A stretch of DNA of 64,000 bases, from positions 124,001 to 188,000 of the IMG/VR virus record IMGVR_UViG_3300034072_000758, one strand, 5' to 3'. Below are positions 27,324 to 48,479 of this stretch, piece by piece; the first letter of the stretch is position 1, and each line of letters begins with the position of its first letter. The translations under genes and the position numbers were made by a program. The DNA is from a virus. The notes beneath the pieces are model-generated. The model was not told the origin of the DNA, did not search any database, and saw only the letters and a list, made by a program, of their open reading frames with translations.

Positions 27324-27361
27324 GTGTTGATAAAGGATGGGTTTTATAATACGTTGCTGGG

Positions 27362-27916
27362 ATGGAATTTCTTTATAGACCCGAATTTTGGCTGGTGACC
27401 TTGCTATTAGTTTTAGCAGTCATCACGCTATCTAATCTATGGTCCGATTTCGCATTTATGTATTATACCCGCAAAGGCCGCTATCGCAGCAAATACTATG
27501 AATTTCCCAATGTGTTCAAATACATATTCTTTAAGAAGAAATTCAATCCAAAAGTTTACAACCTACCAAGAAAGCTTGAGGAAACATTCTCACCTCTCGC
27601 GGCTTATCACGGTCGGTTCAGGAGTCTGGAAATTATTGGTGGAGTTCATATCGAACTATCCGGCGTCGGTGAGTACCATCCAAACATTCTAACGGTTGAA
27701 GGTGACCGATGGATTTTATCTAATGATCCAAACGTGATGATGCCGATTCCGTTTTTTGATCGCTGGCGCGCGATCTACGGGAAATATCAATATATTTACG
27801 TAGGCAATAGCTTTTTCTTCAAGGGTGATGTAAAGTGTTTCGAAGAGGATTTGACCATTATCCTCATGTGTATTGATGACCACATAAAAGAAAAATTTAG
27901 GCCCATTTCATTATGA
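27362..27916 (+). CDS. Membrane-anchored FW/LxL-family protein
   Basis: A 184-residue protein with an N-terminal membrane helix (residues about 8-28, FWLVTLLLVLAVITLSNLW) and a soluble domain ending YIYVGNSFFFKGDVKCFEEDL. This places it in the subgroup with the (Y/F)xG(D/N)xxxFExD motif. Unlike most members it has about 15 residues after the tail (CIDDHIKEKFRPISL). It starts the plus-strand array and overlaps the next gene by four bases. Confidence 0.65.
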   Translation: MEFLYRPEFWLVTLLLVLAVITLSNLWSDFAFMYYTRKGRYRSKYYEFPNVFKYIFFKKKFNPKVYNLPRKLEETFSPLAAYHGRFRSLEIIGGVHIELSGVGEYHPNILTVEGDRWILSNDPNVMMPIPFFDRWRAIYGKYQYIYVGNSFFFKGDVKCFEEDLTIILMCIDDHIKEKFRPISL

Positions 27917-28668
27917 TACTCGGAAGCCGCGCCCGCACTGATGAATTTTTCAAAACCTCTGGGATTAAAGCCCATGAGTTGCTGACACGCATGGCTGATC
28001 GGAGAGACGGTCTTGAAGCCGAAACGCTTGAGCACAATCGATACGGAACAGTCCGGGTAATCAATCTGGATGGCGTCTATATCCTGATTGAACTTGGTAA
28101 CGATAAGTCTTTGGCGCGGGGTAGAAACAAGCATGAGGTAGAAGTCCTACCCCTGATCATTCACGATTATGGTCCAGACAAAAATACCCTCAAGCGCCAT
28201 GTTCAACCAGAATTAGTCTATGAGCCTATTCGCTCGAAGGGCTATCGAGCCAACGTATATGGTTCTTACACTGTTGCGACCAATCGCTTATTCTATTTCA
28301 GAGGGCAATACGAAAATGATCATGACGGTTATCGTTTGGTAGAGTTTCACAAACCCCCGATTCTACATTACAAAAATGATGATGTCATGGATGCCATACA
28401 ACGCATCGCCATCCATCTAAGGTATGAGGATAGAGGGAACGTTCGGCAGACAAGGTATCAACACGAGCGTTGGAATTTTGCTATGAATTTTGGCGCACGA
28501 TACGTATTTACCGAATACGACAATATGCCATTATATAATGCGCTGACATTCAAACAACCGGATTACGAAATCATCTTTGACAATGATTTTAATCAATTCT
28601 CGGCATTCTTGTGGGGAAATAAAGAGGATTTCGATGAAACCCTCACGCTGTCGATCCTCACCAACTGA
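27913..28668 (+). CDS. Long FW/LxL-family protein, 251 residues
   Basis: About twice the usual family length, ending NKEDFDETLTLSILTN. It has two beta-rich halves (TVRVINLDGVYILIELGN near residue 45; NRLFYFRGQYENDHDGYRLV near residue 135), possibly a fusion of two units. It overlaps the upstream gene by four bases and the convergent 28658 gene by 11. Confidence 0.55.
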   Translation: MILGSRARTDEFFKTSGIKAHELLTRMADRRDGLEAETLEHNRYGTVRVINLDGVYILIELGNDKSLARGRNKHEVEVLPLIIHDYGPDKNTLKRHVQPELVYEPIRSKGYRANVYGSYTVATNRLFYFRGQYENDHDGYRLVEFHKPPILHYKNDDVMDAIQRIAIHLRYEDRGNVRQTRYQHERWNFAMNFGARYVFTEYDNMPLYNALTFKQPDYEIIFDNDFNQFSAFLWGNKEDFDETLTLSILTN

Positions 28669-28915
28669 GGTGAATGTCACACGTTAGGACATAATCAGGT
28701 TGCCAGCCGTCGATGGTGAAGCCGCGATCTTCCAGTATGGCGACCACTTCGCTCGCATTGTGTGGATCATCGATGTAGACCCTGACCCAGCCGGAAGAGA
28801 GGTCGAAACGTCGAGCGTTATGAGCCTCGGCTTCCAGCCGCTTGTCGAGATAGCTTTCGATTGACAAGGGTTCGTCGTCGCTGATGAAATCCCTCATGTT
28901 TTGAGCGGTGATCAT
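28658..28915 (-). CDS. Hypothetical protein, 85 residues
   Basis: A small acidic protein with a helical N-terminus (NMRDFISDDEPLSIESYLDKRL) and an alpha/beta second half (WVRVYIDDPHNASEVVAIL, RGFTIDGW). Its start overlaps the stop of 28912 by four bases. No family recognised. Confidence 0.55.
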   Translation of the reverse strand: MITAQNMRDFISDDEPLSIESYLDKRLEAEAHNARRFDLSSGWVRVYIDDPHNASEVVAILEDRGFTIDGWQPDYVLTCDIHLSW

Positions 28916-29244
28916 TTAGGAGCCTTATGTTTGAGGATTACATCGTCGCTGACCTTGTAAGCCAGCACGGCGAGTTGATCGTAGTAATCCAGCGTCATGT
29001 CAACGATCTTGTCGATTTGAGCGCGGGTACATACGATCCTAACCGGGATCATGCGTTCCTCGAACAGTTCACCTTCCCTCGAAATCCACTGGCCTTTGGC
29101 CGGGGATAGGATCGTGAGACCACCACTTACGGCCCGAACCTTCTTGTCCCAGACTTTGTGGAAGCGAGTGCGAATCGGCTTACCGTCCAACCGGCGAATG
29201 GTCGGAACGAGAATTTCCCACATATACAATTTCGGCTGGGTCAT
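28912..29244 (-). CDS. Conserved phage hypothetical protein, 110 residues
   Basis: A protein starting MTQPKLYMWEILVPTIRRLDG, with GGLTILSPAKGQW in the middle and RMIPVRIVCTRAQIDKIVD and YYDQLAVLAYKVSD in the second half. I recall proteins with this pattern in phages and bacteria, without a function. AGGAG lies upstream, and a near-consensus TTGACA-N16-TACAAT promoter precedes it. Confidence 0.65.
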   Translation of the reverse strand: MTQPKLYMWEILVPTIRRLDGKPIRTRFHKVWDKKVRAVSGGLTILSPAKGQWISREGELFEERMIPVRIVCTRAQIDKIVDMTLDYYDQLAVLAYKVSDDVILKHKAPK

Positions 29245-29272
29245 AAGAGGCTCCTATATTTTATACAGGAGT

Positions 29273-29300
29273 ATTGTATCATACGTTGAGTATATGTCAA
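29273..29300 (-). promoter_or_regulatory. Sigma70-like promoter TTGACA-N16-TACAAT
   Basis: Minus-strand TTGACA (29300-29295) and TACAAT (29278-29273) with a 16-base spacer, 29 bases upstream of the ATG at 29244. This is the best match to the consensus in the window. Confidence 0.7.
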
Positions 29301-29650
29301 GATAAGCTTAGAGCTATTCTCATCAGTATCTCATCTACTTCATTTCGAGAGAATTTGGGATTGAAGAAATATTTCTCGCGCTTACTACCAGTCATGATGT
29401 TTAATAAATTCTCTCTGGTATCGTGCCACATTATTTGTTGTAGCGCATATTGATTATCTGTATTCAACATACCTATGATAAAAAATTCACCAACATTGGT
29501 TCGAACAACGGTTTCTCGACCCAGACTAATACGCTTACTATAACGTTCACGAGCCTCGTTCGCCAGAAGCTCAATTAAGCCGTCTATGTCTTTACGATTA
29601 ATATATCTGGACATGAAAGAATTGATGTTGGTTACAGTGATATATTTCAC
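29297..29650 (-). CDS. FW/LxL-family small protein
   Basis: A 117-residue member with a helical N-terminus (INSFMSRYINRKDIDGLIELL), a beta-rich centre (TVVRTNVGEFFIIGML) and the tail EVDEILMRIALSLS. It is the last of three family genes downstream of ValRS, joined by four-base overlaps. Confidence 0.7.
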   Translation of the reverse strand: MKYITVTNINSFMSRYINRKDIDGLIELLANEARERYSKRISLGRETVVRTNVGEFFIIGMLNTDNQYALQQIMWHDTRENLLNIMTGSKREKYFFNPKFSRNEVDEILMRIALSLS

Positions 29651-29901
29651 GATAAAACCAACATAGCTTTCATAAGCACTTCATCCAGACGCTCCGACGA
29701 AGCGTTCGACATATATTTCACATTTTTGTCGCAACCGAATGGCTCAATAATAACTTCCTCATAACGAAGACGATGAAGAACAGCCGAAAAAGAGTCCCAA
29801 GTAAAATCCCCAGCTTCAAAAGTTGGCCAACGTTTCCTAGTCAATTTATCTAATTGTTCCCAGACCTCGCGCGGCACTTCGCTGTGATAGGTTGGTCTCA
29901 T
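29647..29901 (-). CDS. Short FW/LxL-family protein
   Basis: Only 84 residues, one of the shortest members: EVWEQLDKLTRKRW at the N-terminus and RLDEVLMKAMLVLS as the tail. The central beta region is shortened to VLHRLRYEEVIIEPF. ATGA overlaps link it to both neighbours. Confidence 0.65.
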   Translation of the reverse strand: MRPTYHSEVPREVWEQLDKLTRKRWPTFEAGDFTWDSFSAVLHRLRYEEVIIEPFGCDKNVKYMSNASSERLDEVLMKAMLVLS

Positions 29902-30251
29902 GACATCGCCAATTTCAAAGTTATCAAAACATCATCGAAATGCTTTGGACGACAGTTGATGTAATAGAATGACCGAAGCTGGATTTTAATATCGCCATAG
30001 TCCAAACTGGACAGGACCGGAACGTAATCCATCTTTGGAAACCTTTCCCTATTGAGCCAAGTGCCAGTCAGCAACGCTTTACCAACAGGTAAAGGGTTCA
30101 GACGACTACCCACATCATTTGTCAGAATGCTTTGACGCTCGTACAATGGCTGTATGACTGGTAAGAAGCGTTCGCTCCATACGCGGTTCGGAATTTTGTA
30201 AAACCCCTCGCCGCGCATAAGCTGGTCAATGCTAATTGAGATCGTCCCCAT
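29898..30251 (-). CDS. FW/LxL-family small protein
   Basis: A 117-residue member with NRVWSERFLPVIQPL near residue 22, a beta centre (GDIKIQLRSFYYI) and the tail HFDDVLITLKLAMS. Its start lies inside the last 20 bases of ValRS, so the two may be translationally coupled. Confidence 0.65.
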   Translation of the reverse strand: MGTISISIDQLMRGEGFYKIPNRVWSERFLPVIQPLYERQSILTNDVGSRLNPLPVGKALLTGTWLNRERFPKMDYVPVLSSLDYGDIKIQLRSFYYINCRPKHFDDVLITLKLAMS

Positions 30252-31752
30252 CGGGCCAAGTATCCGTGATCAATGGTGTGTCGGAATAAGCCATCCGAAT
30301 ACGCTCAGTAATGAACGGAATAAACGGATGACTCATACGAAGTGTCTGGTCCAAAGCCCACATCAAAGTGTTAATAGCTTCGGGATCACCATTGTAAAGT
30401 CTTTGCTTGGATATTTCAAGATAGAACCCGCAAAGATCATCGAACAAAAACTTTCTGAAACACATAGCCGCATCACTATAACGCAGATTAGCCAAATGCT
30501 CAGAAATCTCATTAGAAGCCCGTAGAGCCGTTTTATAGATCATCCGGTCACACTCTTGGGCCAAGGTCAACTTACCCGTCTCTGGCCTTCCTGCGCGGTC
30601 CCACTGACCCAATGTGAACTTAGATGCGTTCCACAACTTCGTACACAAAGATTTGGCCCCTTTGAACTTCTCGTCCCACAGCTTCATATCCATCGCTGGG
30701 GTTGTGTTCTCGGCCAACGCAAATCGCATCGTGTCGCAACCATACGTCTCGATAAGTTCAAGCGGATCGATACCATTACCCTCGCTCTTGGACATCTTCT
30801 TTCCATCTTTGTCGAGGATCAATCCGTGAAGGTAGATCGTCTTGAACGGAAGCTGATCGGTCAGGAACAAGCCCATCATCAGCATACGAGCACACCAGAA
30901 GAAGAGAATGTCCGAAGCCGTCTCGATCATATTGGCTGGATAGAACTTCTTATAGTCCTCGGTCTGTTCCGGCCACCCCAAGGTTGCGAATGGCCATAAA
31001 GCTGAACTGAACCACGTATCCAGACAGCCCTCAGCTTGGGTCCAGCCGCCATCAAGAAATTCCAGATACTTCCATTTTTCGGAAGTATCGAGAATTTTTA
31101 TCTCACCGTTTTTGGTGAAGATCGGAAGACGATGGCCCCACTTGATCTGGCGAGAAATACACCAAGGCTCAATACGATACAGGAAATCACGGATCGTGCC
31201 TTCCTGCCCTTTTGGATGAATATTGATGTTGCCTTGATCAAGCTCACCTAGCAATCGGTTGGCCAACAACGTCATGTCGAGATACCATTGACCCTCGGCC
31301 TCGTAAAGCATTCCCTGTTCGTGGCAACGTTTTAGGGCTTCGGTAGTAGCCTTGGAGTAACGGTCGTCCAGAGTAAACGTTTCCCGGCTCCAATCAGCCG
31401 AAGCACCGCAACGGCGTAATTGTCCGGTGATGGTAGATTTGAGGTTCTGTTTATAGTTCTGGGAATATGGGTAGAACTGTGTGTCGTCGGTCGGGTCAAG
31501 CCCTTCGGCGAGCATGGCTTCTTCAAGCTTACGCTGCGTGGCAAGGCCAGCATGATCCGTACCGGGAAGCCAAAGAGTATCGAACCCTTTCATCCGGTGG
31601 TAGCGTGTAGAAATGTCTTGAAGGGTGGCGAACATCGCATGGCCCATATGAAGGATGCCGGTGATGTTCGGGGGAGGCATTGGGATGAAATATGGAGTCC
31701 CGGTGCCAGATGGTTTGAAGTGGTTATTTTGTTCCCAACGGGAATAGATCAA
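30232..31752 (-). CDS. valS: Valyl-tRNA synthetase without the CP1 editing domain
   Basis: A class I synthetase with HMGHA at residues 35-39, GTDHAGLATQ at 64-73, WCISRQIKWGHR at 197-208, LDTWFSSALWPF at 244-255 and KMSKS at 319-323, all typical of ValRS. It has about 506 residues against roughly 900 in bacteria. The CP1 editing domain, which normally precedes the WY-containing segment near residue 156, is missing, as is the C-terminal tRNA-binding coiled coil. Such an enzyme could charge tRNA-Val with Val but not clear Thr. The start is uncertain: TTG at 31752 is used here, but the ATG at 31811 with GGAGG reaches this frame only if one base is missing (CCC at 31804-31806). Three FW/LxL genes follow. 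Confidence 0.88.
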   Translation of the reverse strand: MIYSRWEQNNHFKPSGTGTPYFIPMPPPNITGILHMGHAMFATLQDISTRYHRMKGFDTLWLPGTDHAGLATQRKLEEAMLAEGLDPTDDTQFYPYSQNYKQNLKSTITGQLRRCGASADWSRETFTLDDRYSKATTEALKRCHEQGMLYEAEGQWYLDMTLLANRLLGELDQGNINIHPKGQEGTIRDFLYRIEPWCISRQIKWGHRLPIFTKNGEIKILDTSEKWKYLEFLDGGWTQAEGCLDTWFSSALWPFATLGWPEQTEDYKKFYPANMIETASDILFFWCARMLMMGLFLTDQLPFKTIYLHGLILDKDGKKMSKSEGNGIDPLELIETYGCDTMRFALAENTTPAMDMKLWDEKFKGAKSLCTKLWNASKFTLGQWDRAGRPETGKLTLAQECDRMIYKTALRASNEISEHLANLRYSDAAMCFRKFLFDDLCGFYLEISKQRLYNGDPEAINTLMWALDQTLRMSHPFIPFITERIRMAYSDTPLITDTWPDGDDLN

Positions 31753-31893
31753 AGCTTCGTCATTCGCATGATCGAAAAACTTTGATGTCAGATTACGTCC
31801 AACAGGGTCATTTGATTATCCTCCAAAGGATTAAGGGTTGAAATATTTTAATACATTATTTAGAATGCTAAGGTCAAGCCAAATGGTATTTTC

Positions 31894-32256
31894 GTGCTCC
31901 CATTTAACTCTTTCGTCACAATACTAAAAACCGCTCCATACAAAGAGTATGTCAAGGGTGGCGCGGGTTACGACATGGTTAATGGTAACTTTACTGTAGA
32001 ATTGCGAACTTACGATTATAGAAATAATCAATTCCTACAGTCGTACAAGATGAGTATTTACTGGAAAGGGCTGGAAATATATCAAGGCATATTGACGCTG
32101 GACACTGGTAATATTAGAATCGATGGTGATACTGTTGTCGGAGGAAGATTTCTCCACATAGGACCAAGTGGTTATGATATTAAACCCCACCGCATAGGGT
32201 TCTTGGGCGAAGACTCGCACGAAGAAATGATGATCGAAATTTTGAGGATGATGTGA
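31894..32256 (+). CDS. FW/LxL-family small protein, start uncertain
   Basis: A 120-residue member with beta strands NFTVELRTYDYRNNQ and YKMSIYWKGLEIY and the tail HEEMMIEILRMM. The GTG at 31894 has no nearby ribosome site. The ATG at 31883 has AAGG nine bases upstream but lies in another frame and would need a one-base change, so the true start is doubtful. It overlaps the next start by one base. Confidence 0.55.
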   Translation: MLPFNSFVTILKTAPYKEYVKGGAGYDMVNGNFTVELRTYDYRNNQFLQSYKMSIYWKGLEIYQGILTLDTGNIRIDGDTVVGGRFLHIGPSGYDIKPHRIGFLGEDSHEEMMIEILRMM

Positions 32257-32897
32257 TGGGTGATGATCATATTGACGCAAGAAACAGCGTATGGTGGGCT
32301 TGGATCATGGTGTTGGTCGGAATTGTCGGATTAGCTGGTATCGGTTTTCGGGTATATAAAATAATTACCGGGATAGCTCCACTCAAATCATTTTGGTATG
32401 AGTTTTGGACCGTAACACCAATGCTTATTAGTACAATGCTTGGTTTATTTTTTGCTGTATTGCTCTATCATTATTATACCTATTACCAATACGAATTGCC
32501 ATATTCGGATAAGTATCCTCGCAATATATATCCATTTCCAAAAAGGAACGAGTTTAAGAAACTTATCCTGCGCAAAAACGATACGTTGGATGTTCAGTGG
32601 TTCTTGAAGAAAGCCATTGACGCCGCCCCATATTTCCACACACCGGACCCACGCCTTCCCCACAGGCTTTTTCACGATGTCGGAAAAATTGGATCAATTG
32701 ATCTCGATTTTTATGGAAGCATTCTGTACACAAAATATGTCCAAGGTAACGGCTGGCAGATCGTCTTTTGTAATGATCCCGAAATACAAGATTTTTTCAA
32801 AGGACAAGGTTATTATTTTGTCAATTCAAAGATGATAGTGTATGGTGATCTCGAACAGTTAGAGAACGACCTTATTACTATGAGGTTGTCTATGTAA
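32256..32897 (+). CDS. Membrane-anchored FW/LxL-family protein
   Basis: A 213-residue protein with two N-terminal membrane helices (about residues 13-33 and 53-75) and a soluble domain ending KMIVYGDLEQLENDLITMRLSM, the GDxxxxExD variant of the tail. The ATG at 32256 overlaps the previous stop (TGATG). Confidence 0.65.
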   Translation: MGDDHIDARNSVWWAWIMVLVGIVGLAGIGFRVYKIITGIAPLKSFWYEFWTVTPMLISTMLGLFFAVLLYHYYTYYQYELPYSDKYPRNIYPFPKRNEFKKLILRKNDTLDVQWFLKKAIDAAPYFHTPDPRLPHRLFHDVGKIGSIDLDFYGSILYTKYVQGNGWQIVFCNDPEIQDFFKGQGYYFVNSKMIVYGDLEQLENDLITMRLSM

Positions 32898-32913
32898 CAA
32901 CATTGAGCGTACC

Positions 32914-33210
32914 GTGGACGTATCTTTTCTTGTAAATCATTTTATAGAACTCACTCCATTTCGGGATGACGAGAACTATATTTCAACTACCCTGATCGGC
33001 AACACACCATGCGCCTATTATCGGTCTTTTACTAACACCAGTACCTTAGTCACAGTCTTCACACAGGACTGGATTATTGCGCCAGCACCCATAGAAGATA
33101 CACTTGATGATTCTACAAAATGGGTGTATCTTGGTGGGGAATATTATTTTAAGGGAAACGCGGAACAGTTTGAAAACGACATGATTGTCTTTAGGCTGGT
33201 GTTACAATAA
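32914..33210 (+). CDS. FW/LxL-family small protein, minimal domain
   Basis: A 98-residue member of the subgroup with the motif YYFKGNAEQFENDM and tail IVFRLVLQ, but with no membrane helix. It gives a minimal version of the domain carried by its membrane-anchored neighbours. It starts with GTG, and its last base is the first of the next gene. Confidence 0.6.
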   Translation: MDVSFLVNHFIELTPFRDDENYISTTLIGNTPCAYYRSFTNTSTLVTVFTQDWIIAPAPIEDTLDDSTKWVYLGGEYYFKGNAEQFENDMIVFRLVLQ

Positions 33211-33722
33211 TGGCTACAGGTCTCCAACTCGTATTGTTAATCCTCTTTTCGTCCCTCGCAATATTCGTCTTAAAGACGTTGACGAAGGGTAAGCTGTTGT
33301 TCGCCTCAAAGGATCGCCAGAAAGCTTACGCCGAATATATGATCCATAAGGGTTATATTTACAGTAAATATCAGGACCAGCGCCAGCTTCCATCCTTCAA
33401 CGTCTGGGAAAAGATGTCAAAGAAGTATATGGATTTGGAATTTATTGACGATTATTTTTCGGGCAATAGGCGCGGTGCTGATTGGTATGACGCCAACACT
33501 TTTCATTATACCTTCCCCGAATACGGTATGTTGGCCGTGGCCACGCGCGATGATGACCGAATGCTGCTGTTTTTTTCCGGTTCGGATTGGCGATTGGTTT
33601 ATCGTCTCAAGTTTGTGAACAACCTCAGCCGTGCCATATATCTCGGCGAAGGGCTGTACTTCGAGGGTAACCCGGAACAGTTCGAAAACACAATGTCGAT
33701 CATCAAGCTGAAAGCGTCATGA
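33210..33722 (+). CDS. Membrane-anchored FW/LxL-family protein
   Basis: A 170-residue protein with an N-terminal membrane helix (residues 5-25, LQLVLLILFSSLAIFVLKTL), a basic/aromatic linker and the subgroup end AIYLGEGLYFEGNPEQFENTM with tail SIIKLKAS. Overlaps both neighbours by one and four bases. The domain following the helix would face the cytoplasm or periplasm; orientation is not determined. Confidence 0.65.
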   Translation: MATGLQLVLLILFSSLAIFVLKTLTKGKLLFASKDRQKAYAEYMIHKGYIYSKYQDQRQLPSFNVWEKMSKKYMDLEFIDDYFSGNRRGADWYDANTFHYTFPEYGMLAVATRDDDRMLLFFSGSDWRLVYRLKFVNNLSRAIYLGEGLYFEGNPEQFENTMSIIKLKAS

Positions 33723-34120
33723 ACGTAAGAGACGATATTGCGTTCTGGGCTAAAATCTTAAACGCTTCTGATGTTGATCGAGTAGTCAAACTCAATGGCT
33801 ATCAGTTTAAAGCTAAGTATAACGCCAATGGTTTAGTTCAAAGTTTTGTTTCGAGATCACATAACGAGTGGCGTAGCAGTCTTATGTTGATTTTTGAAAA
33901 CAGCTTATTTCGTTTTACCGTAAACGCTGTAATCAATATTGTGGATTCAAATCGTCCGCCCTCTGATTTTCATGAACTTCCAATGTTACATACCAAACCG
34001 TTCAATCCAATAGTATTTCGGATAGAACAATATGGTTCACATAAACTCGAATTATTCGACTGGACAGAAGACGAGTTCGATAGTATGGTTATGTCTCTTT
34101 ATTTGAAGTTGAAAGACTGA
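33719..34120 (+). CDS. FW/LxL-family small protein
   Basis: A 133-residue member with the clear N-terminal motif DDIAFWAKIL, a beta-rich middle (SLMLIFENSLFRFTVNAVINI) and the tail DEFDSMVMSLYLKLKD. A soluble protein between two membrane-anchored members. Confidence 0.7.
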   Translation: MNVRDDIAFWAKILNASDVDRVVKLNGYQFKAKYNANGLVQSFVSRSHNEWRSSLMLIFENSLFRFTVNAVINIVDSNRPPSDFHELPMLHTKPFNPIVFRIEQYGSHKLELFDWTEDEFDSMVMSLYLKLKD

Positions 34121-34638
34121 TGTATATCACAATCATCGCCGTTTTCATGACTGTGTTGTCTTTGGTACGAATGTATCAGGAGATCATAGCTTATTGCACC
34201 ACTCGGATCATATCGCTTGTTGATGTTGAAAACCGCAACTTCGGTATTTTTAACATCAACATTATTCGGAATAGCTGGGTGCGCAAGATTGCGAAGCCGC
34301 GCAATTTTGATGAACGCCTTATCGACATTCTGATCAACAAGTTCCCCGAAAAGCTGGACAAGAACGGCTCGGCCAAGATGTCGAAGAATGGGACCATTCT
34401 CGAACTCCAAGGTTCGTTCAACGATGACCATTATCATTTCCGACGCCTCGGCGGTCGAAAGCCTTGGGTCGAAGTGAAAACCGCCAAGTGGGTTCTGACC
34501 AAGGCTCCCTTTATTCATCCCACACTTAACCCAACACCCAAAGGTAATTGGGTGAAGATTGGCGACAATTATTTCGTCGGTGGCGACATCGCGCGGTTTG
34601 AAGACGATGTTGCGATTATCGCTCTCACACACAATTAA
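34120..34638 (+). CDS. Membrane-anchored FW/LxL-family protein
   Basis: A 172-residue protein with an N-terminal hydrophobic helix (residues 2-18), a basic central region and the subgroup end NYFVGGDIARFEDDVAIIALTHN. It is GC-richer than neighbouring members in its second half. Confidence 0.65.
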   Translation: MYITIIAVFMTVLSLVRMYQEIIAYCTTRIISLVDVENRNFGIFNINIIRNSWVRKIAKPRNFDERLIDILINKFPEKLDKNGSAKMSKNGTILELQGSFNDDHYHFRRLGGRKPWVEVKTAKWVLTKAPFIHPTLNPTPKGNWVKIGDNYFVGGDIARFEDDVAIIALTHN

Positions 34639-34645
34639 GCGGCAA

Positions 34646-35011
34646 ATGGAACCAGATGCCTTCCGTGCCCCGAAAGATGATGAAGTCGTAATCGCCCCGA
34701 AATACGACCACGAACTCCTGCGACAAGAGTTCATCAAGATCGCCAAAATTCTCACGGAACATAATTTATTCACGGAATATGGCGATCTTTACGATTACCG
34801 GGTTGGTAGTCGGGGATACTCAGTTTATATAAGCGGAGATTTTGTCGAATTTTCATTATACGAATACGCCGATACTGGACACCGATTTATGAAAACCCCG
34901 ATCTATTCGGCGTCATATATAAAGTGTAAAATATTGTCATATTCTGTCGTAGACATGACACAAGACGAAATCATCGAACAATTGCTTTTATTTGTGTTGA
35001 TGCTGAAATGA
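34646..35011 (+). CDS. FW/LxL-family small protein
   Basis: A 121-residue member starting MEPDAFRAPKDDEVVIAPK, with strands YSVYISGDFVEFSLYEY and the tail QDEIIEQLLLFVLMLK. The ATG at 34646 follows a GCGGCAA stretch; an in-frame start further left would lie deep inside the previous gene. Confidence 0.65.
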   Translation: MEPDAFRAPKDDEVVIAPKYDHELLRQEFIKIAKILTEHNLFTEYGDLYDYRVGSRGYSVYISGDFVEFSLYEYADTGHRFMKTPIYSASYIKCKILSYSVVDMTQDEIIEQLLLFVLMLK

Positions 35012-35734: not shown

Positions 35735-35745
35735 GGAACAAACCA

Positions 35746-36087: not shown

Positions 36088-36098
36088 GAGATTTGCTA

Positions 36099-36206: not shown

Positions 36207-36209
36207 GAT

Positions 36210-36850: not shown

Positions 36851-37248
36851 CTAACATCGATCTCTTCTTCATGATCTGCACCCTCATAAACAAGTATGAG
36901 GATAAGCTTACCCTAACGGAAGCTGGTAGTGGAGACTTTAGCTTTAGACAACTCAAAGGAAGAGTTTTGATAGGTGGGGTTTACACCAATCTTGAATATT
37001 CTGCGCCTAACCCAATATACGTCTCGTTGAAGACGACGAACATCCACATTTATTGTGGAATGACGACCGTTAGTATGTTGAGTAATATCTCCCTAGAAGA
37101 TTACTTGAGAGCACCACTCAATATTTTAGAATCTTATTATTTTATAAACGCATATTTACACAACCCAGAGAAAAATGTTACAGTCAGTTACAAGAGCAAA
37201 GATCGCGCAGAAGATCATCTTATGATTCTCAGGCTGGCAGCATCATGA
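36847..37248 (+). CDS. FW/LxL-family small protein
   Basis: A 133-residue member: MTNIDLFFMICTLINKYED, a beta-rich middle (PIYVSLKTTNIHIYCGM) and the tail RAEDHLMILRLAAS. Four-base overlaps join it to both neighbours. Confidence 0.65.
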   Translation: MTNIDLFFMICTLINKYEDKLTLTEAGSGDFSFRQLKGRVLIGGVYTNLEYSAPNPIYVSLKTTNIHIYCGMTTVSMLSNISLEDYLRAPLNILESYYFINAYLHNPEKNVTVSYKSKDRAEDHLMILRLAAS

Positions 37249-37652
37249 CCGACATAACAGAAGACATTGAGTGGTGGGGAACTTTGTTTTCCGACATCGC
37301 GGCTCGATATAAAGTCGAAGAGACCTCTGATAAAATGCTGCTGTCGATTCCACTATCGAACCACAGTGTTGTGGAATGCTCGGCCTATCAACGCAAGAAC
37401 CCACCTATCGGTATGGAGTTCGTGGACATGAAATTCTCGTCCAGAAACTTCACCTTTTCATTCAATCTGTCTCGTCCCTATAAGGATAACGGGATGACTA
37501 TCGACCGACTGCGTTCAGGAGGCTTCGGCGAAGGGGTGATCATGTTCGATGATAACCAATTCCTGTACTATGACGTGAAGATGTTCGAGCACGGCACCAC
37601 CGCCGAAATCGATGAAGACCTCATGTTGCTGCGGCTGGCGTTCGCTTCCTGA
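37245..37652 (+). CDS. FW/LxL-family small protein
   Basis: A 135-residue member with the motif EDIEWWGTLFSDI, a beta-rich middle (MKFSSRNFTFSFNL) and the tail IDEDLMLLRLAFAS. GC content is higher towards its 3' end than in neighbouring members. Confidence 0.7.
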   Translation: MTDITEDIEWWGTLFSDIAARYKVEETSDKMLLSIPLSNHSVVECSAYQRKNPPIGMEFVDMKFSSRNFTFSFNLSRPYKDNGMTIDRLRSGGFGEGVIMFDDNQFLYYDVKMFEHGTTAEIDEDLMLLRLAFAS

Positions 37653-38071
37653 TGCTTAGTATAACGGATCATATTTTCCAAGATTTTAAGTTCTGGGACT
37701 CTATCGTAGACCGGGGAGACGAATTAATTTCATGGGGCGTTCATGTTGAAGAGTTGGACAATACCAACAAATATCAATTCTATAGTAACACACATAAGGT
37801 TAGACTAACGAGTACAGATTATAATTGCTTCTCGTATAGTATAGAAGCTTCTTGTTTCGTCTTCCAATATGAGATCATTGGGTCTATGTTGTCTTTGAGT
37901 GAAGAGAAACAATTCTGGACGCGATATTACTCTGAATTTCCATACTCCCCAAAAAACATCATCGAACTTTACCCCGGCGTATATTATGATTGCCACGCAT
38001 ATCATCTTGAAGTAAAATCCGAACCAGACGCAATTGACCTAATCACTCGCCTGAGATTGACCTATGTATGA
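37652..38071 (+). CDS. FW/LxL-family small protein
   Basis: A 139-residue member with QDFKFWDSIVDRGDE at the N-terminus, strands KYQFYSNTHKVRLTS and FSYSIEASCFVFQYE, and the tail DAIDLITRLRLTYV. One-base and eight-base overlaps with its neighbours. Confidence 0.7.
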   Translation: MLSITDHIFQDFKFWDSIVDRGDELISWGVHVEELDNTNKYQFYSNTHKVRLTSTDYNCFSYSIEASCFVFQYEIIGSMLSLSEEKQFWTRYYSEFPYSPKNIIELYPGVYYDCHAYHLEVKSEPDAIDLITRLRLTYV

Positions 38072-38843
38072 CGATACCACCGACAAATTCTGGAAGCTGT
38101 ACGGCGATGATCTATGCGAGCAATTGAGTGAACAATCCTGCGATCCAGACAATAAGATGTATGACCATATCGGGGTCATCAATTATGATCGCATCAACAT
38201 GCTCAATATCCGAATGTTTGTTGAAGTGACCTTGGAAGGTCAGGAGCCGTTTTGCGTGGAATACGAAAGCGGTAACAACAACGGCTTCGCCATCCATAAA
38301 TTTGGCCCAAATATCCAGTTCGAAGAATACGAACCAGATGTTCGTTACTTCGCGCCGACGCATATTGACACCTATGTTCGAAATCTAACGTATATCCGCG
38401 AGCAAGAGCGGAAGATGAACTACGATTTTCACTTCGACCCCTCATCGAGGATTTTTAAATATTATAATGATTGGGCCAGCAACAATGCTTGCGCCATATC
38501 AACACGCGAACCCTATAAGATTCTGAAATACGAACATGCTCAAAAAATGGTCCTGACCGTCATGGATCATAAAGACGATGGTGTGAAACTATCCAAGTTT
38601 ACTCAAGCCTACAGATTGTTTCACCAAATCGCCGAAGCGGCTACTTGGACTTTGTATTGGCAACACTGTCCTACCGAAATCGAACGCTATGACGAATATA
38701 TTCCCTCGGCGGGGCATCTATCGCCACCACGCTATCGTATCGAGTACCGATTTGGCGATAACAAAGGGACGGCTGTGTATCTTCGCGGAAACGTGGCTGA
38801 CTTTGAAGACTATGCGATGCGGGCTATACTAATGTCAAAATAA
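38064..38843 (+). CDS. Long FW/LxL-family protein, 259 residues
   Basis: A double-length member: TDKFWKLYGDDLCEQL at the N-terminus, an additional helical stretch near residues 100-200, and the end AVYLRGNVADFEDYAMRAILMSK, matching the (Y/F)xG(D/N)xxxFExD subgroup. Its 3' end overlaps the convergent 38824 gene by 20 bases. Confidence 0.6.
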   Translation: MYDDTTDKFWKLYGDDLCEQLSEQSCDPDNKMYDHIGVINYDRINMLNIRMFVEVTLEGQEPFCVEYESGNNNGFAIHKFGPNIQFEEYEPDVRYFAPTHIDTYVRNLTYIREQERKMNYDFHFDPSSRIFKYYNDWASNNACAISTREPYKILKYEHAQKMVLTVMDHKDDGVKLSKFTQAYRLFHQIAEAATWTLYWQHCPTEIERYDEYIPSAGHLSPPRYRIEYRFGDNKGTAVYLRGNVADFEDYAMRAILMSK

Positions 38844-39210
38844 GGGTGGATAGATCGCATTCCATTTGTTCGCGGTCACCCTTGTATCTGCGTGTGCCCC
38901 AATCCAATTCCCAACCGAGGCCCTTCATAGCCAGAACAAAAATCTGACTAGCTGTCCCGTTGAAGAAACAGACGTTGAGTGTGATGCTCATGGTTATACC
39001 ACTGATTTCAAATGGTATAAAAATCTTGCGGCGGGACGACCCCATCTTAAGCCCGGTATCTCTTGACATCCGAGCGAAATTCACATGCTCCTGATCAGCA
39101 AGTCCACGCACCGAAGTTTCTATGCTTTTGATCTTTACCAGATTATCCCATTCTAACGCTTTGGTCAGTGTCTTAGGATCATTCGGATAGGGTTTGCTGA
39201 ACCACATCAT
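38824..39210 (-). CDS. FW/LxL-family small protein on the opposite strand
   Basis: A 128-residue member with the subgroup end RRYKGDREQMECDL and tail STLILTLV. The first half is basic (RGLADQEHVNFARMSRDTG). It and 39207 form a two-gene minus-strand unit inverted relative to the array. Confidence 0.6.
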   Translation of the reverse strand: MMWFSKPYPNDPKTLTKALEWDNLVKIKSIETSVRGLADQEHVNFARMSRDTGLKMGSSRRKIFIPFEISGITMSITLNVCFFNGTASQIFVLAMKGLGWELDWGTRRYKGDREQMECDLSTLILTLV

Positions 39211-39641
39211 ACTGTCACTTCCGATAGCAGCAAGACAATCGTTGTGACATCTTCTTCAAAACGAGCCGCGTTACCTTTGAACTGGTACTTGCTTCGTTTT
39301 CCGATATTCACCCCGGCGGTATTGTGCTTCAATATCCATTCGGGAGAAATAACAGAGTCGATTACAAAATCACGACGCAAATCACCGCCAAAAAAAGTGT
39401 GTAGCGCTTCCACCGCGATCTTCACAGAACTAAACTCAAGCTGATGCTTGTGAAGAAGGGTGAATTTATTTTGTGCGAACTCAGGCACGTGACCCAAATA
39501 CTGAATCTCGATTACTTCCTTCATTTTGCGTATACTATCCTGCATTTGTGCGGATTCACGCAAAAGCCTCAGCGCCTTTTCGACAACCGTAGCATCATGA
39601 ACCGTCTTGAAAGGAAGAAGGGGTAAGAATAGGGTTTTCAT
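39207..39641 (-). CDS. FW/LxL-family small protein on the opposite strand
   Basis: A 144-residue member ending YQFKGNAARFEEDVTTIVLL plus LSEVTV. The N-terminus MKTLFLPLLPFKTVHDATVV is hydrophobic but too short for a confident membrane helix. It overlaps 38824 by four bases. Confidence 0.6.
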   Translation of the reverse strand: MKTLFLPLLPFKTVHDATVVEKALRLLRESAQMQDSIRKMKEVIEIQYLGHVPEFAQNKFTLLHKHQLEFSSVKIAVEALHTFFGGDLRRDFVIDSVISPEWILKHNTAGVNIGKRSKYQFKGNAARFEEDVTTIVLLLSEVTV

Positions 39642-39682
39642 TTGACTATAATACGCAATGAAAATAAATTACGCAATATATC

Positions 39683-39710
39683 TTTACATTTTACGATTTG
39701 ATGATATGGT
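39683..39710 (+). promoter_or_regulatory. Sigma70-like promoter TTTACA-N16-TATGGT
   Basis: TTTACA (39683-39688) and TATGGT (39705-39710) with a 16-base spacer lie 28 bases upstream of the ATG at 39739, in the gap between divergent units. Confidence 0.5.
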
Positions 39711-39738
39711 GTAAACATATCAACATCGGGAGACAAAT

Positions 39739-39987
39739 ATGTACACTCTCGCGCAATTAGCTCTCTTTGATCGCTGTCTGTTTCCAGATGACTTTTACAA
39801 CGCTTTGCTTAAGCATGGTTGCCAACCCACCCTTGCTATGTTCATTCGTTCGTGGTTGATCGAAGGAAAAGGGAAGCGTGGTATCGTGTCTGTATATCAA
39901 GAGTGGGTAGAAACATCCTCTGATGGGCGTCCTCTCGCAGCTACTATAGACGCCATCCTACAAGAATTTTTCGAGGGGAAAAACTGA
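39739..39987 (+). CDS. Hypothetical protein, 82 residues
   Basis: A soluble helical protein (MYTLAQLALFDRCLFPDDF; AATIDAILQEFFEGKN). GGGAGA precedes the ATG. It is the first gene of an operon that continues into six small membrane proteins; its last base is the first of the next start codon. No domain recognised. Confidence 0.6.
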   Translation: MYTLAQLALFDRCLFPDDFYNALLKHGCQPTLAMFIRSWLIEGKGKRGIVSVYQEWVETSSDGRPLAATIDAILQEFFEGKN

Positions 39988-40181
39988 TGCTCGATCTCAT
40001 TATTCACGAATGGCGGTTGTTCGTCACTTGTGCGGTTCAGGCCAGCGCAGTTTACATCGTCATTCGCATCAATCTTCCAGCAAGTGATGGTGAGCGTTTC
40101 CCCGGTGGGCGTAGGGCCATGCTGTCGGCGTTCATTCTGTTTCTAGTCTTCTTCTTGTGCGGAGTATCCCATGTTGCCTGA
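39987..40181 (+). CDS. Small membrane protein 1 of six
   Basis: A 64-residue protein with two hydrophobic segments (about residues 11-28 and 45-62) separated by a charged loop with LPASDGERFPGGRR. It is the first of six consecutive small membrane-protein genes with overlapping ends. Function unknown. Confidence 0.6.
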   Translation: MLDLIIHEWRLFVTCAVQASAVYIVIRINLPASDGERFPGGRRAMLSAFILFLVFFLCGVSHVA

Positions 40182-40488
40182 TTACGCTACAATCGGTCCT
40201 TGGGCGATGGTGTCCTCCATATCACTTCTGGTCTATTTCTCAGTCGTCACGTTCATGATGATCTTCAACATGGTGCGGCGCGAGAAGGCATCCGTTCTGG
40301 TGGCAATCTTCCTGTCTACCGGTGCTGCTATCGGCATCTTCGCTTTCGTTCATATCGTTTTTATGATCGTTCACTTTGGTAAGCTTACCCCTATTTTCAC
40401 GGCGGCTGTCTGGATTTGCCAAATCGTCGTGTTGACAAAATATCGCTCGGCGTTCTTCGCCATATTCGGAAAGGATGTACACCAATGA
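40171..40488 (+). CDS. Small membrane protein 2 of six
   Basis: A 105-residue protein with three predicted membrane helices (about residues 12-35, 44-68 and 74-92) and a basic loop MVRREK. It overlaps the previous gene by 11 bases and the next by four. Together with its neighbours it may form a multi-subunit membrane assembly; that is inference. Confidence 0.6.
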   Translation: MLPDYATIGPWAMVSSISLLVYFSVVTFMMIFNMVRREKASVLVAIFLSTGAAIGIFAFVHIVFMIVHFGKLTPIFTAAVWICQIVVLTKYRSAFFAIFGKDVHQ

Positions 40489-40775
40489 TCGACATTACTC
40501 CCTTGGAAACCTACATTTTCGGTATGGTGGGTTTCGCTTCGTTCGTCATCGCCTTCGCGTCATCACTGATCATGTTTAAAAATCATGTCCCCGATTTCCC
40601 GTTCATGCTGTCGGGGCTGATTTCGATGGTACTTGCTACGCTTACCCTCATTTTCGTTATGTTTGTCGTGGGTGCGCTATTCATCACCGGTCTTTCCAAA
40701 CTGGCCTTCATCGGGTTCGTGGTATCCCTCGCGGTCGGTGCGGGTATCTGGTGGAATATGAAGGTATCCCAATGA
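40485..40775 (+). CDS. Small membrane protein 3 of six
   Basis: A 96-residue protein with three predicted helices (about residues 10-30, 40-62 and 68-90). The helix after SGLISMVLATLTLIFVMF continues into GALFITGLSK and GFVVSLAVGAG. The ATG at 40485 overlaps the previous stop (ATGA). Confidence 0.6.
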   Translation: MIDITPLETYIFGMVGFASFVIAFASSLIMFKNHVPDFPFMLSGLISMVLATLTLIFVMFVVGALFITGLSKLAFIGFVVSLAVGAGIWWNMKVSQ

Positions 40776-41077
40776 TCGAATCCATCCTCAACGGCCTTCT
40801 GTGGTACTATGCTGCGCTGTCGGCTCTGGCCACCCCGATCCTGCTGTCGATCATCGCCGGGGCGAACTACGCCGTATCGCTGAACCATCTGTTCACACAC
40901 GCCAAACCACCGATGGCAGATCGTAACCTCAACGAATGGCCGCTGGTCGCCGGTCAAGCGTTTTTGGCAATGATCATCCTGACCATCGTTATCATCGCGT
41001 GTGCGGTCCTCCTACCCTTCATCGCTGTCGCATACGCTATGTATTTCCCGTTTTCTCTCGTTTTTAAGAAGACGTAA
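40772..41077 (+). CDS. Small membrane protein 4 of six
   Basis: A 101-residue protein with two long hydrophobic regions (about residues 8-34 and 58-95) around a loop FTHAKPPMADRNLNEWPL. It starts at the ATG overlapping the previous stop. Confidence 0.6.
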   Translation: MIESILNGLLWYYAALSALATPILLSIIAGANYAVSLNHLFTHAKPPMADRNLNEWPLVAGQAFLAMIILTIVIIACAVLLPFIAVAYAMYFPFSLVFKKT

Positions 41078-41361
41078 TGTTCGAATTATTCGAAAAATAT
41101 GTCGAGTGGGCTAGGTCTTTCGAGGTAGTAAAACCCGCAAGTTTAGTCGTCTTGGTGATCACGGGGTTCCTTATCGTCCCCATGCGTAATTTACTCATTA
41201 ATGAAATGAGTGATATGGTCATCATGAGTTGGATACTGGCTTTCCTTATTGGTATAGCAGCATTCCTTACTGGAATGCTGATCTTCTTGTTCCTTCCCTT
41301 CGCAATGGTAATCATGGTGGGTATTTCTATCTTTTATGCGGTGTGGCGATGGAAACCATGA
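41077..41361 (+). CDS. Small membrane protein 5 of six
   Basis: A 94-residue protein with hydrophobic segments at about residues 18-36 and 47-85, ending YAVWRWKP. Base composition is more AT-rich than genes 3 and 4 of the set. Its final base pattern overlaps the next start (ATGA). Confidence 0.6.
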   Translation: MFELFEKYVEWARSFEVVKPASLVVLVITGFLIVPMRNLLINEMSDMVIMSWILAFLIGIAAFLTGMLIFLFLPFAMVIMVGISIFYAVWRWKP

Positions 41362-41672
41362 ATATTTTTATTGCGTGGGATAAAATATACAACAGCATCC
41401 CGATAGAATATGTTATCGCCCCTTCTGTTTTGATTGCTGCGATAACAGCCCCCATCGTGTTTCTTCGGGTAAAAGAAGAAAATGATGATTTTTCTATGAT
41501 CATGGTGTCATGTTTAATGACTGCGGCGAGCGCGTTCTGCACTGTTGTGGTTTTGGCTGGCGTTGTTAAATTCTTGCCATATACCATTTGTGTAATCGTG
41601 GGTCTTTCCATTTTCGCAGTGTTCTGGCGAGCTTATGGAAAGAAGTTCCTAGCTTTTTTCGGCATTAACTGA
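41358..41672 (+). CDS. Small membrane protein 6 of six
   Basis: A 104-residue protein with three predicted helices (about residues 17-36, 47-70 and 73-92) ending FWRAYGKKFLAFFGIN. The end resembles that of gene 2 of the set (KYRSAFFAIFGK), hinting at shared ancestry. The ATG at 41358 overlaps the previous stop. Confidence 0.6.
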   Translation: MNIFIAWDKIYNSIPIEYVIAPSVLIAAITAPIVFLRVKEENDDFSMIMVSCLMTAASAFCTVVVLAGVVKFLPYTICVIVGLSIFAVFWRAYGKKFLAFFGIN

Positions 41673-41719
41673 CAACAAAATAATTGTGCGCTTGATCAAC
41701 TTTGTGCTAAGTTGTCACC

Positions 41720-42754
41720 ATGCGTATGAATGACCTGATCTTCTGTAATGATGGCGTACTGAGAGTACGATACAACGATGAACTCCCGTTGGTCGATCTC
41801 AAGTCTTTTCAAGACCTCAGTGGCGATGATGACCTGAACTTCATCACCGGCTGGTGGGAAGAAAATGTCGTCTTCGAAGAAGGTCTGACCATCGCCAAGT
41901 TTCTCATGTGCCTTGAGCCTTGGGCGAAGCTGTGGTCAATCATAACCAAGAAAGACATTGCTGCTTATATCAAAGAAAGCCGCAAGCCCACCATCGTCAA
42001 AGAGACTGATAAAAAATGGTACGCGGTGATCGGCTACTTCACTGATGTCGAGCCAGAGCTTCAACACAGCACCTCAGCGTCGGACTTCACTTCGTTTGAA
42101 GATTTCTTGAATAATCGTACCCCACCGACACTCAAGCCAAAATGGAATTTCCACGGCCACTATAAACTAAATGGCCATGTTCAGGGTGAGGTTGAACACT
42201 ATTCCTTGGACTATTCGCCTATGAACGAAATGGCGAACTATCCATTGTATCTTTCGCCAAATCATATGGTCAACGTCTCCAAGTTCTACGTCGAAAAGTA
42301 CGGCGATGCTGAGACGGTCGATCTGTTCAATTATGATGGGTTGGGTATGCGTTCGGTAACACATGAGGACCGCACACACCACTACATCATTGGCGATAAG
42401 AGCCACAATCTGCGTGATGTGGTTGAAGCCTTCTTTTGGTGGCTCCCACACAGCCCAACCAGCCGTGATGCGTTCAACGCCAAGCTCAAGGAAGATTTGG
42501 ATCGTCTGGACATCGACGTGTCTAAAGTGGTTGAGAAAACGGTTGATGACGAGACCGAAATCAAGATTGTTGTGGCCGATGGTGCCTTTGATGGTCTCAC
42601 GTCGCAATGGGAGGCTGAGAAGAAGTATTTCTTAGACGGTCTGGAACAAGCTAAGAAAGCCAAGATTTGTAAGCTTCGGGTGGGCGGTGCGAAAGAAGGT
42701 AAGGTGCCAGAAAAGCGCGTCTCCTTGTGGCTCGTAGATGACGAGGACTTGTAA
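41720..42754 (+). CDS. Hypothetical protein, 344 residues
   Basis: A soluble protein with no domain I recognise. The N-terminal part is acidic and beta-prone (LIFCNDGVLRVRYNDELPLVDL), the middle is aromatic/His-rich (WNFHGHYKLNGHVQGEVEHYSLDY), and the C-terminal third is helical and charged (KYFLDGLEQAKKAKICKLRVGGAKEGK). It shows no FW/LxL tail. Its last base is the first of the next gene. Confidence 0.55.
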   Translation: MRMNDLIFCNDGVLRVRYNDELPLVDLKSFQDLSGDDDLNFITGWWEENVVFEEGLTIAKFLMCLEPWAKLWSIITKKDIAAYIKESRKPTIVKETDKKWYAVIGYFTDVEPELQHSTSASDFTSFEDFLNNRTPPTLKPKWNFHGHYKLNGHVQGEVEHYSLDYSPMNEMANYPLYLSPNHMVNVSKFYVEKYGDAETVDLFNYDGLGMRSVTHEDRTHHYIIGDKSHNLRDVVEAFFWWLPHSPTSRDAFNAKLKEDLDRLDIDVSKVVEKTVDDETEIKIVVADGAFDGLTSQWEAEKKYFLDGLEQAKKAKICKLRVGGAKEGKVPEKRVSLWLVDDEDL

Positions 42755-43113
42755 TGTTGGATGTTGTTAGCTTCTATCTGACCCTCTATATTGGCGCGGC
42801 TTTAACTGGCTGGCTGTTTTGGATTTGGGTCGTCGTTACGGCAATTGGTCTGTATGTCGCATTTGTCAACGAAAACCTCTATGAGTTCAGACAAGCGTGT
42901 TCAATTGGTTGGTGGAGCCTCGTTGCTATACTAGCAGTGCCGATTGTCGTGCCACTCGTCATCATCGTTGGTCTAGGCTACAGTCTGTTGGCTTATATAG
43001 ATCATGTTTATGTTCGCAAGACCACCACCCACAAAAAGATCGGTGAAACGATAAAGGCATACTTTGCTCAGATCGATGCCGAAGTCGAACAGAATAATAA
43101 GAATAAAAAATGA
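42754..43113 (+). CDS. Small membrane protein with charged tail
   Basis: A 119-residue protein with two hydrophobic regions (about residues 5-40 and 54-85, including WWSLVAILAVPIVVPLVIIVG) and a soluble charged tail (KKIGETIKAYFAQIDAEVEQNNKNKK) that could be a short coiled coil. ATGA overlap with the next gene. Function unknown. Confidence 0.6.
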   Translation: MLDVVSFYLTLYIGAALTGWLFWIWVVVTAIGLYVAFVNENLYEFRQACSIGWWSLVAILAVPIVVPLVIIVGLGYSLLAYIDHVYVRKTTTHKKIGETIKAYFAQIDAEVEQNNKNKK

Positions 43114-43397
43114 TTTTTGACAAAACTCTTGTATATACGTTGTATATGCGCGCTACCGTTGAAGTCGAAGGCCCTCCCGAAATAAAAGTTTTGAATGTGA
43201 ATGATACACTTGTTCGGTTCGAAACTTGGGGCAAGCATGATTGGCATCGAACAATGTCTATCTATACCGATGACTTTAAGATAGACTACGACTTCCAAAG
43301 TATTAACAACTGGAATATGCTGAGACAATTTCCACCCAAGGTCTATAATCAGGAACAAGCTGAAACGACATGGATGTTGATGAAAATACTCGCCTAG
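43110..43397 (+). CDS. FW/LxL-family small protein
   Basis: A 95-residue short member with strands RATVEVEGPPEIKVLNVNDT and MSIYTDDFKIDYDF and a weak version of the tail, EQAETTWMLMKILA. It overlaps the next gene by 28 bases, an unusually long overlap for the array. Confidence 0.5.
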   Translation: MIFDKTLVYTLYMRATVEVEGPPEIKVLNVNDTLVRFETWGKHDWHRTMSIYTDDFKIDYDFQSINNWNMLRQFPPKVYNQEQAETTWMLMKILA

Positions 43398-43753
43398 ACT
43401 TCGTTCGTCTTTACAACAAATGTAAAGATAAAAAGAGTCGTACCACGATGGCGGTAGGTGATCATATTCTGCGCTTTCATGTTGTCGGCCAAGAAAATGC
43501 CACGGTCGTAAAGTTTCGAGTCAGCGTTTCAAAATTATTCTCTTATGAGTTCCGCGCTCAACTTACCTGTATGGTGAAGAACGAGCAATCTCTTAAGGGA
43601 ACGCCTTTCATTAAGCTCTATTACTATAGTGGTTACTTTCATTACCGCGTAATGCATTCTGTGCTATCGAGCACTTTTACATCATCAAAGTCTTTCGTAA
43701 AAGATGATCTTGAATCCATTATCGCTATGGCCAAAATTCAGCATATGTGCTAA
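43370..43753 (+). CDS. FW/LxL-family small protein
   Basis: A 127-residue member with an N-terminal helix (ENTRLDFVRLYNKCKDK), a beta-rich middle (VVKFRVSVSKLFSYEFRAQ) and the altered tail KDDLESIIAMAKIQHMC. If the ATG at 43370 is correct its start lies well inside the previous gene; no other good start is visible. Confidence 0.5.
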   Translation: MDVDENTRLDFVRLYNKCKDKKSRTTMAVGDHILRFHVVGQENATVVKFRVSVSKLFSYEFRAQLTCMVKNEQSLKGTPFIKLYYYSGYFHYRVMHSVLSSTFTSSKSFVKDDLESIIAMAKIQHMC

Positions 43754-43762
43754 CGATTGATT

Positions 43763-44308
43763 ATGGAATTTTTGACTTCGCCCTTGTTTACTATGTTAGT
43801 GACCTGCGGGTTCATCTTTCTCGTGGTATTCGGCTCACAGTTGAAACAAATTCTGCGGGATTATCATCCCCGGTATAAAGACTATCTTTTTGACCGGGCC
43901 AAGCATATGAAAGCCACCACAAAACCCGCTCAGTATCCTTTGCCGGGGGTGTATCCTCTTGCTGCGGTCCCACTTGAACTAAGTATCACGTATCCATCGT
44001 TCAGTAAATGGCTACGCATGGAGCATATCAGCGAGCCAATGAACCTCGATTTTACTAATACTATCGGCGGTCAAGTGGATGCGGACTATGTGTTTACTTA
44101 CTACTTCAACAAGTCGAACATAATAGTCATGTACCGTGACCTAGAGCGTTATCTACAGTTCAAGACCGAAAAGTGGAATTGCAATCTCAGCTATATGCTC
44201 ATTGAGAAGCCAAGCAAGAAGACTTACCTGATCGATGGAAAATATTTCGTTCAAGGCGATCTGGCTCAATTCGAAGAAGATATGATGTCTCTAAGGTTAT
44301 TGAACTGA
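43763..44308 (+). CDS. Membrane-anchored FW/LxL-family protein
   Basis: A 181-residue protein with an N-terminal membrane helix (residues about 8-26), a Pro-rich linker (KPAQYPLPGVYPLAAVPLE) and the subgroup end YFVQGDLAQFEEDMMSLRLLN. The ATG at 43763 is preferred to a TTG at 43757. Its last base is shared with the next start. Confidence 0.65.
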   Translation: MEFLTSPLFTMLVTCGFIFLVVFGSQLKQILRDYHPRYKDYLFDRAKHMKATTKPAQYPLPGVYPLAAVPLELSITYPSFSKWLRMEHISEPMNLDFTNTIGGQVDADYVFTYYFNKSNIIVMYRDLERYLQFKTEKWNCNLSYMLIEKPSKKTYLIDGKYFVQGDLAQFEEDMMSLRLLN

Positions 44309-48477: not shown

Positions 48478-48479
48478 CT

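Follow-up and report, generated by a model that had tools for sequence, protein, structure and literature searches.

Here, we describe a family of roughly 100 small genes in a jumbo phage genome, the 516,805-base virus record IMGVR_UViG_3300034072_000758 of IMG/VR. The best-conserved branch of this family, which we call the FExD branch after its C-terminal signature, occurs both as free proteins and as proteins with an added N-terminal membrane helix. Nine branch genes lie between positions 27362 and 44308 of one stretch of 64,000 bases (bases 124001-188000 of the record, called the window here); genes are named by window position unless record positions are stated. The family consists of lineage-specific, fast-diverging small proteins of this ~517-kb jumbo phage. 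Our preferred explanation, held with a little less than even confidence, is that these proteins are binding domains made early to take over the host, and that the FExD branch is partly tethered to the inner membrane on its cytoplasmic side.

The phage belongs to the neighborhood of Agrobacterium phage Atu_ph07. Specifically, its tail/baseplate gene 21341-23689(-) is closest to genes of Atu_ph07 and of Sinorhizobium phage Phosso (25-28% identity), and its probable capsid protein is 72-82% identical to proteins of IMG/VR contigs, some of them longer than 450 kb. The whole record was read and compared with Phosso, Atu_ph07, and four IMG/VR relatives.

A C-terminal signature in free and tethered proteins

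An earlier note on this DNA had described five genes (27362, 32256, 33210, 34120, and 43763) in which one or two N-terminal membrane helices precede an ending of the form (Y/F)xG(D/N)xxxFExD, and four genes (32914, 38064, 38824, and 39207) with the same ending and no helix. Hydropathy and the open reading frames (ORFs) agree with both descriptions: all nine genes are real open frames that carry the signature, and no helix is found in any of the latter four. The consensus proved looser than first stated, because F can also be L or M, and the final D can also be T or Y, giving (Y/F)xG(D/N)xxx(F/L/M)Ex(D/N/T/Y) (Table 1).

The signature recurs more often than expected by chance, because a profile seeded on the last 70 residues of the nine genes recovers 12 members from the 2,651 ORFs of the entire record at E < 1e-3 and none from reversed proteins. 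The search was iterative and converged at once. Analogously, matches to the pattern G[DN]xxx[FLM]Ex[DNT] number 12 within the final 34 residues of ORFs versus 4 among the 226,133 residues elsewhere. Three of the 12 profile members lie outside the window, at record positions 115594-116088, 231766-232275, and 232272-232796. A thirteenth member (record 294073-294675(-)), which has an N-terminal membrane helix and ends CGDMTKLEED, was added manually; its profile match is weak (E 0.011).

Free and tethered members share their last ~60 residues. Residues 35-95 of free 32914 align with residues 106-169 of tethered 34120 at 31% identity (pairwise E 2e-9; E 5e-6 among the 2,651 ORFs), and 32914 and tethered 33210 are 44% identical over 32 residues (pairwise E 8e-8; E 3e-4 among the 2,651 ORFs). 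At two loci the start and stop codons of neighboring members overlap: free 32914 with tethered 33210, and, in record positions, tethered 231766 with helix-less 232272.

By hydropathy, 7 of the 13 branch members possess an N-terminal membrane helix, compared to 3 of 128 other family members (Fisher p = 1e-6), and the helix calls in those three are doubtful. Only 32256 has two membrane helices. The start codon of 27362 is uncertain: codon scoring favors the ATG at 27458, 32 codons downstream, in which case the helix is lost. The possibility had been raised that the helices are buried parts of the fold of the free proteins. This is unlikely, because the membrane segments are N-terminal additions to the shared module that have no counterpart in the free members.

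The N-terminal tails that precede the helices are 1-14 residues long and contain at most one lysine or arginine, and the 20 residues that follow the last helix contain two to five. This pattern of a tail poor in basic residues and, after most membrane segments, a stretch rich in them suggests that single-helix members likely have their N-terminus out and their C-terminus in, and that the tethered module most likely sits at the cytoplasmic face of the inner membrane. These predictions agree with the proposal that tethering places the domain at the inner membrane, and the flanking charges add to it the probable face.

The AlphaFold model of 34120 has a mean predicted local distance difference test (pLDDT) score of 59, with local values of 73-82 in the signature region. 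There, the signature plausibly reads as a last strand, a helix cap, and a C-terminal helix (Table 1). The model of a wider-family member, 57930-58316(-), consists of an N-terminal helix, seven to eight strands, and a C-terminal helix, also at mean pLDDT 59. Both models have predicted template modeling (pTM) scores of 0.40-0.43. Foldseek matches to p32/C1QBP-like and lipocalin-like structures came from a low-confidence model at E > 0.5 and were not used.

A wider family with a shared terminal helix

Beyond the branch, a similar tail motif of approximately E-E-[ED]-x-[ED]-[ED]-[AI]-L-M-x-[LF]-x-L lies a few residues from the C-terminus of many small proteins, as an acidic, leucine-rich helix. 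A first count of 157 genes was inflated, with the motif scored on the very tails that had served to train it, and an initial cross-validation, begun from a poor start, failed. We retested the motif using random-start expectation–maximization (EM), refitted shuffles, and held-out 20-kb blocks. Its log-likelihood is 771 versus 313-341 in the refitted shuffles, and 118 held-out genes score above 7 versus 17 expected, which gives about 100 genes. They are concentrated at 150-250 kb of the record and occur in consecutive runs of up to 14. Most members have no BLAST match to another member. The branch profile and the wider-family profile align over 23 terminal columns (hhalign probability 74%, P 3e-5).

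An N-terminal FWxxL helix, present in some members, was also considered as a family motif. At first it looked strong, at 52% versus 0.7%, but it failed the held-out EM test; a model-free count gives 25% versus 6%, and the motif is not significant in most branch members.

Promoters point to probable early expression

Two promoter types are enriched in intergenic DNA: a sigma-70-like type, TTGACA with TGnTATnnT, and TATAAATA, which we take to resemble the T4 late promoter. The capsid gene and the tail/baseplate genes that were checked carry the late type. The ratio of early to late promoters is 56:1 for family operons versus 27:30 for genes conserved in Phosso (p = 2e-10). When only genes directly behind a promoter are counted, the ratios are 16:1 and 10:19 (p = 1e-4). 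Because its operons carry sigma-70-like rather than late-type promoters, the family is probably expressed early, like most accessory genes, and is probably not virion material. The earlier note had supposed that the tethered forms act where DNA entry, exclusion, or lysis are decided. The early promoter class speaks against late lysis and is compatible with exclusion or with counter-defense.

Across the whole record, the two promoter classes divide the genes, with accessory genes on one side and those for capsid, tail, and baseplate on the other. In the window, a sigma-70-like candidate at 31838..31866 precedes operon 31894-34638, which contains three tethered members and 32914. We discarded a promoter call at 27327, which has a poor -10 partner and lies near a perfect TATAAT that lacks a good -35.

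Relatives carry different families

Neither the branch nor the wider family has a significant match in Pfam-A, PHROGs, NCBIfam, or the PDB. Searches found no relatives of 34120, 33210, or the member at record 231766 in IMG/VR, none of 34120 or 33210 in phage records, and, among bacterial genomes, none of 43757. Phosso and Atu_ph07 have no match to the branch profile, and 14 IMG/VR records that encode related capsid proteins are matched neither by it nor by the wider-family profile, which covers only the better-conserved members of the family. The profiles are thus absent even from relatives whose capsid protein is 72-80% identical, and most of these relatives carry their own, different families with C-terminal motifs.

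Specifically, Phosso and the IMG/VR relatives G001, G002, and G008 each possess roughly 70-110 small genes with the C-terminal signature FxDDxDAxxFKLTW, as fitted motif counts without cross-validation; the motif log-likelihoods are two- to fourfold above those of refitted shuffles. The same procedure found no such genes in G004. The FKLTW-family genes that were scanned have no Pfam or PHROGs match, and these families are, as far as we found, undescribed. A word search of the papers on Atu_ph07 and AP-J-162 yielded no mention of paralogous families (PMC6102473, PMC11242549). Like the present family, the FKLTW proteins have a strand, an acidic loop, and a terminal helix that ends 2-4 residues from the C-terminus, and in G001 and Phosso their genes are biased to sigma-70-like promoters. 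Unlike it, they are shorter, have few tethered forms, and show no profile relationship. Homology between the two looked likely by eye, but comparison of the FKLTW profiles with the branch or the wider family lends it no support (hhalign probabilities 0.3% and 0.1%). A few genes of the present phage have tails intermediate toward the FKLTW type, and a common origin is possible.

Two further observations concern these relatives. Phosso 117043-117525(-) has a membrane helix and an FKL tail (FRRQKDAMLFKLSI) and could be a tethered form in a relative. At 305-316 kb of Atu_ph07, small tandem genes, many beginning MDxFEF, end in approximately GETFYDFIDRV, another local family with a C-terminal motif.

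An expansion of comparable kind is known in Bacillus phage G, in which about 35 copies of a zinc ribbon, proposed to bind DNA, were termed unprecedented in a survey of 224 jumbo phages (PMC7824862). In both cases a small domain has expanded in a lineage-specific way within a jumbo phage. The present family differs in that its signature has no such cysteine pattern, it is larger, and it includes a membrane-tethered branch.

Proposed role and alternatives

In the mechanism we propose, the branch module would comprise ~60 residues: a tryptophan-centered strand, a last strand ending in (Y/F)xG, a turn with the (D/N) as cap, and a C-terminal helix beginning xxxFExD. In seven members, the added N-terminal membrane helix (N-out, C-in) and a linker would hold this module at the cytoplasmic face; the free relatives, in places encoded by the adjoining gene, would act in the cytoplasm. 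Each member would be a small domain that binds a host target of its own, and the conserved terminal helix would serve as framework or as a shared docking surface. The tether would put some members where membrane-located host proteins act, possibly against membrane-located host defenses or to exclude a second phage at entry. The signature, the sequence homology between free and tethered proteins, the hydrophobic N-terminal helices, and the neighboring positions of the genes are direct observations. The size of the family and its early promoter class are statistical results, from which stand apart the topology, the common fold, the binding function, and the membrane target, all of which we infer.

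Several points weigh against this mechanism. Structure searches with the low-confidence models (pLDDT 59) gave no significant match, so a common fold of free and tethered members is proposed from sequence; of the earlier proposal that one domain exists in both forms side by side, the homologous C-terminal module and the neighboring genes stand, and the single fold is the part left inferred. The link between branch and family involves only about 23 C-terminal columns. The topology is weakly indicated for 34120, 32256, and the member at record 294073, in which acidic residues are as many as basic ones. Most of the phage's accessory genes likewise have early promoters, directly preceded family genes do not differ significantly from other non-conserved genes (p = 0.20), genes of one operon are not independent in the promoter counts, and the single promoters in the window are weak. 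Finally, nothing indicates a particular target, and there are no orthologs in which selection could be tested.

One alternative is superinfection exclusion, in which the tethered members would block DNA entry by a second phage as T4 Imm or P22 SieA do. Both of these are small phage proteins of the inner membrane (for SieA, PMC10883804). The tethered members resemble them in being small inner-membrane phage proteins, a location that is assigned to 7 of 13 members by hydropathy alone, and their probable early expression would suit the role. So would the adjoining operon 39987-41672(+), labeled early, which encodes six consecutive small hydrophobic proteins of 64-147 amino acids with several helices each; the two of these that were scanned have no Pfam match. 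We nonetheless consider exclusion unlikely. Unlike in Imm and SieA, the bulk of each tethered member is a predicted cytoplasmic domain, and most of the family, including 6 of the 13 branch members, has no membrane helix. Searches of NCBIfam, Pfam, and PHROGs yielded no match to Imm, SieA, or any other described family. We favor a broader takeover role over exclusion alone because free members exist and the family is large.

Alternatively, the terminal helix could be a modular docking tag by which unrelated small proteins, free or membrane-bound, bind a common phage or host hub. The motif does lie within a few residues of the C-terminus, no part other than the tail is detectably shared across the wider family, and the N-terminal motif fails cross-validation. 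Within the branch, however, homology extends about 60 residues upstream of the tail, and the modeled strand that precedes the helix belongs to the signature, which would better fit a folded domain. Such a tag, too, has a low probability in our judgment.

We regard as improbable a near-neutral expansion in which tandem duplicates persist under little constraint as filler and share no task. The extreme divergence, with mostly no BLAST match between members, and the long runs of family genes are what such drift would leave, but the open frames are tightly packed with overlapping starts and stops, the terminal motif is retained while the remainder diverges, and membrane helices are largely limited to one branch. 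Least probable, and only barely credible, is that these are virion or lysis proteins made late: some early-labeled stretches do adjoin late virion genes, as with 26534-27310(-) beside 27362, but the promoter ratio of the family operons is opposed to the late-type promoters of the capsid and checked tail/baseplate genes, and no virion or lysis family in Pfam, PHROGs, or NCBIfam is matched.

Features and other genes of the window

Table 1. Branch members and associated features, in window positions (aa, amino acids)
Feature	Position	Strand	Description
Tethered member	27362..27916	+	184 aa; one predicted membrane helix, residues 9-29; signature FFKGDVKCFEED; start ATG 27362 or 27458
Tethered member	32253..32897	+	213-214 aa; two predicted membrane helices, ~15-35 and ~51-72; signature IVYGDLEQLEND; likely start ATG 32256, preceded by GAGG
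Free member	32914..33210	+	98 aa; ending YFKGNAEQFEND; signature YYFKGNAEQFEND; stop overlaps start of 33210
Tethered member	33210..33722	+	170 aa; one predicted membrane helix, residues 3-22; signature YFEGNPEQFEN
Tethered member	34120..34638	+	172 aa; one predicted membrane helix, ~residues 2-19; signature FVGGDIARFEDD
Signature of 34120	34570..34608	+	residues 151-163; modeled last strand 151-155 ending at G155, helix cap D156, C-terminal helix 157-171
Free member	38064..38843	+	259 aa; signature YLRGNVADFEDY, divergent
Free member	38824..39210	-	128 aa; signature RYKGDREQMECD, divergent
Free member	39207..39641	-	144 aa; signature QFKGNAARFEED
Tethered member	43757..44308	+	183 aa (start TTG 43757) or 181 aa (start ATG 43763); one predicted helix, ~9-28; signature FVQGDLAQFEED
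Array of free wider-family genes	44308..48899	+	related terminal helix motif; lies within a run of as many as 14 consecutive family genes
Sigma-70-like promoter candidate	31838..31866	+	TTGAAA-17-TAGAAT; consensus match only
-10-like TATAAT	27345..27350	+	12 bases upstream of ATG 27362; without good -35

The window also encodes two synthetase-like proteins. The product of 30232-31752(-) resembles a short valyl-tRNA synthetase of 506 amino acids. The E. coli enzyme is about twice as long, and because of this difference the editing domain may be missing too. Gene 51361-52593(+) encodes a threonyl-tRNA synthetase-like protein of 410 amino acids, in which matches are limited to the class II core and the anticodon-binding domain; thus, a TGS or editing domain was not found among its Pfam matches. 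Other genes specify a Bax inhibitor-1 family membrane protein (13158-13871(+); PF01027, E 2e-48), a radical SAM protein of 454 amino acids (11205-12569(-); PF04055, E 1e-13), and a NADAR domain protein (58509-59105(-); PF08719, E 4e-45). The NADAR family is tied to NAD/ADP-ribose metabolism, and a counter-defense role is possible. Two YHGG/YHGT...GLYL repeats in 25146-26084(-) resemble, by eye only, ADP-ribosyltransferase-like domains.

Implications

Lineage-specific expansions of small phage proteins are of a known kind; here, the expansion reaches ~100 members and includes a branch with both free and tethered forms. A more general reading, which we advance as doubtful, is that one early, hyper-diverged family, about a sixth of the genes of the phage, works at two sites, in the cytoplasm and on the cytoplasmic side of the inner membrane, and that each phage of the clade evolves its own family, recognizable by a C-terminal helix signature of its own and amounting to an individual set of host-takeover or counter-defense binders on one scaffold. 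If the tethered members neutralize membrane-located defenses or exclude rival phages, each could be tested singly. A family of ~100 genes that was not found in relatives with a 72-80% identical capsid protein would offer a tractable set for exploring how host-takeover proteins diversify in giant phages.

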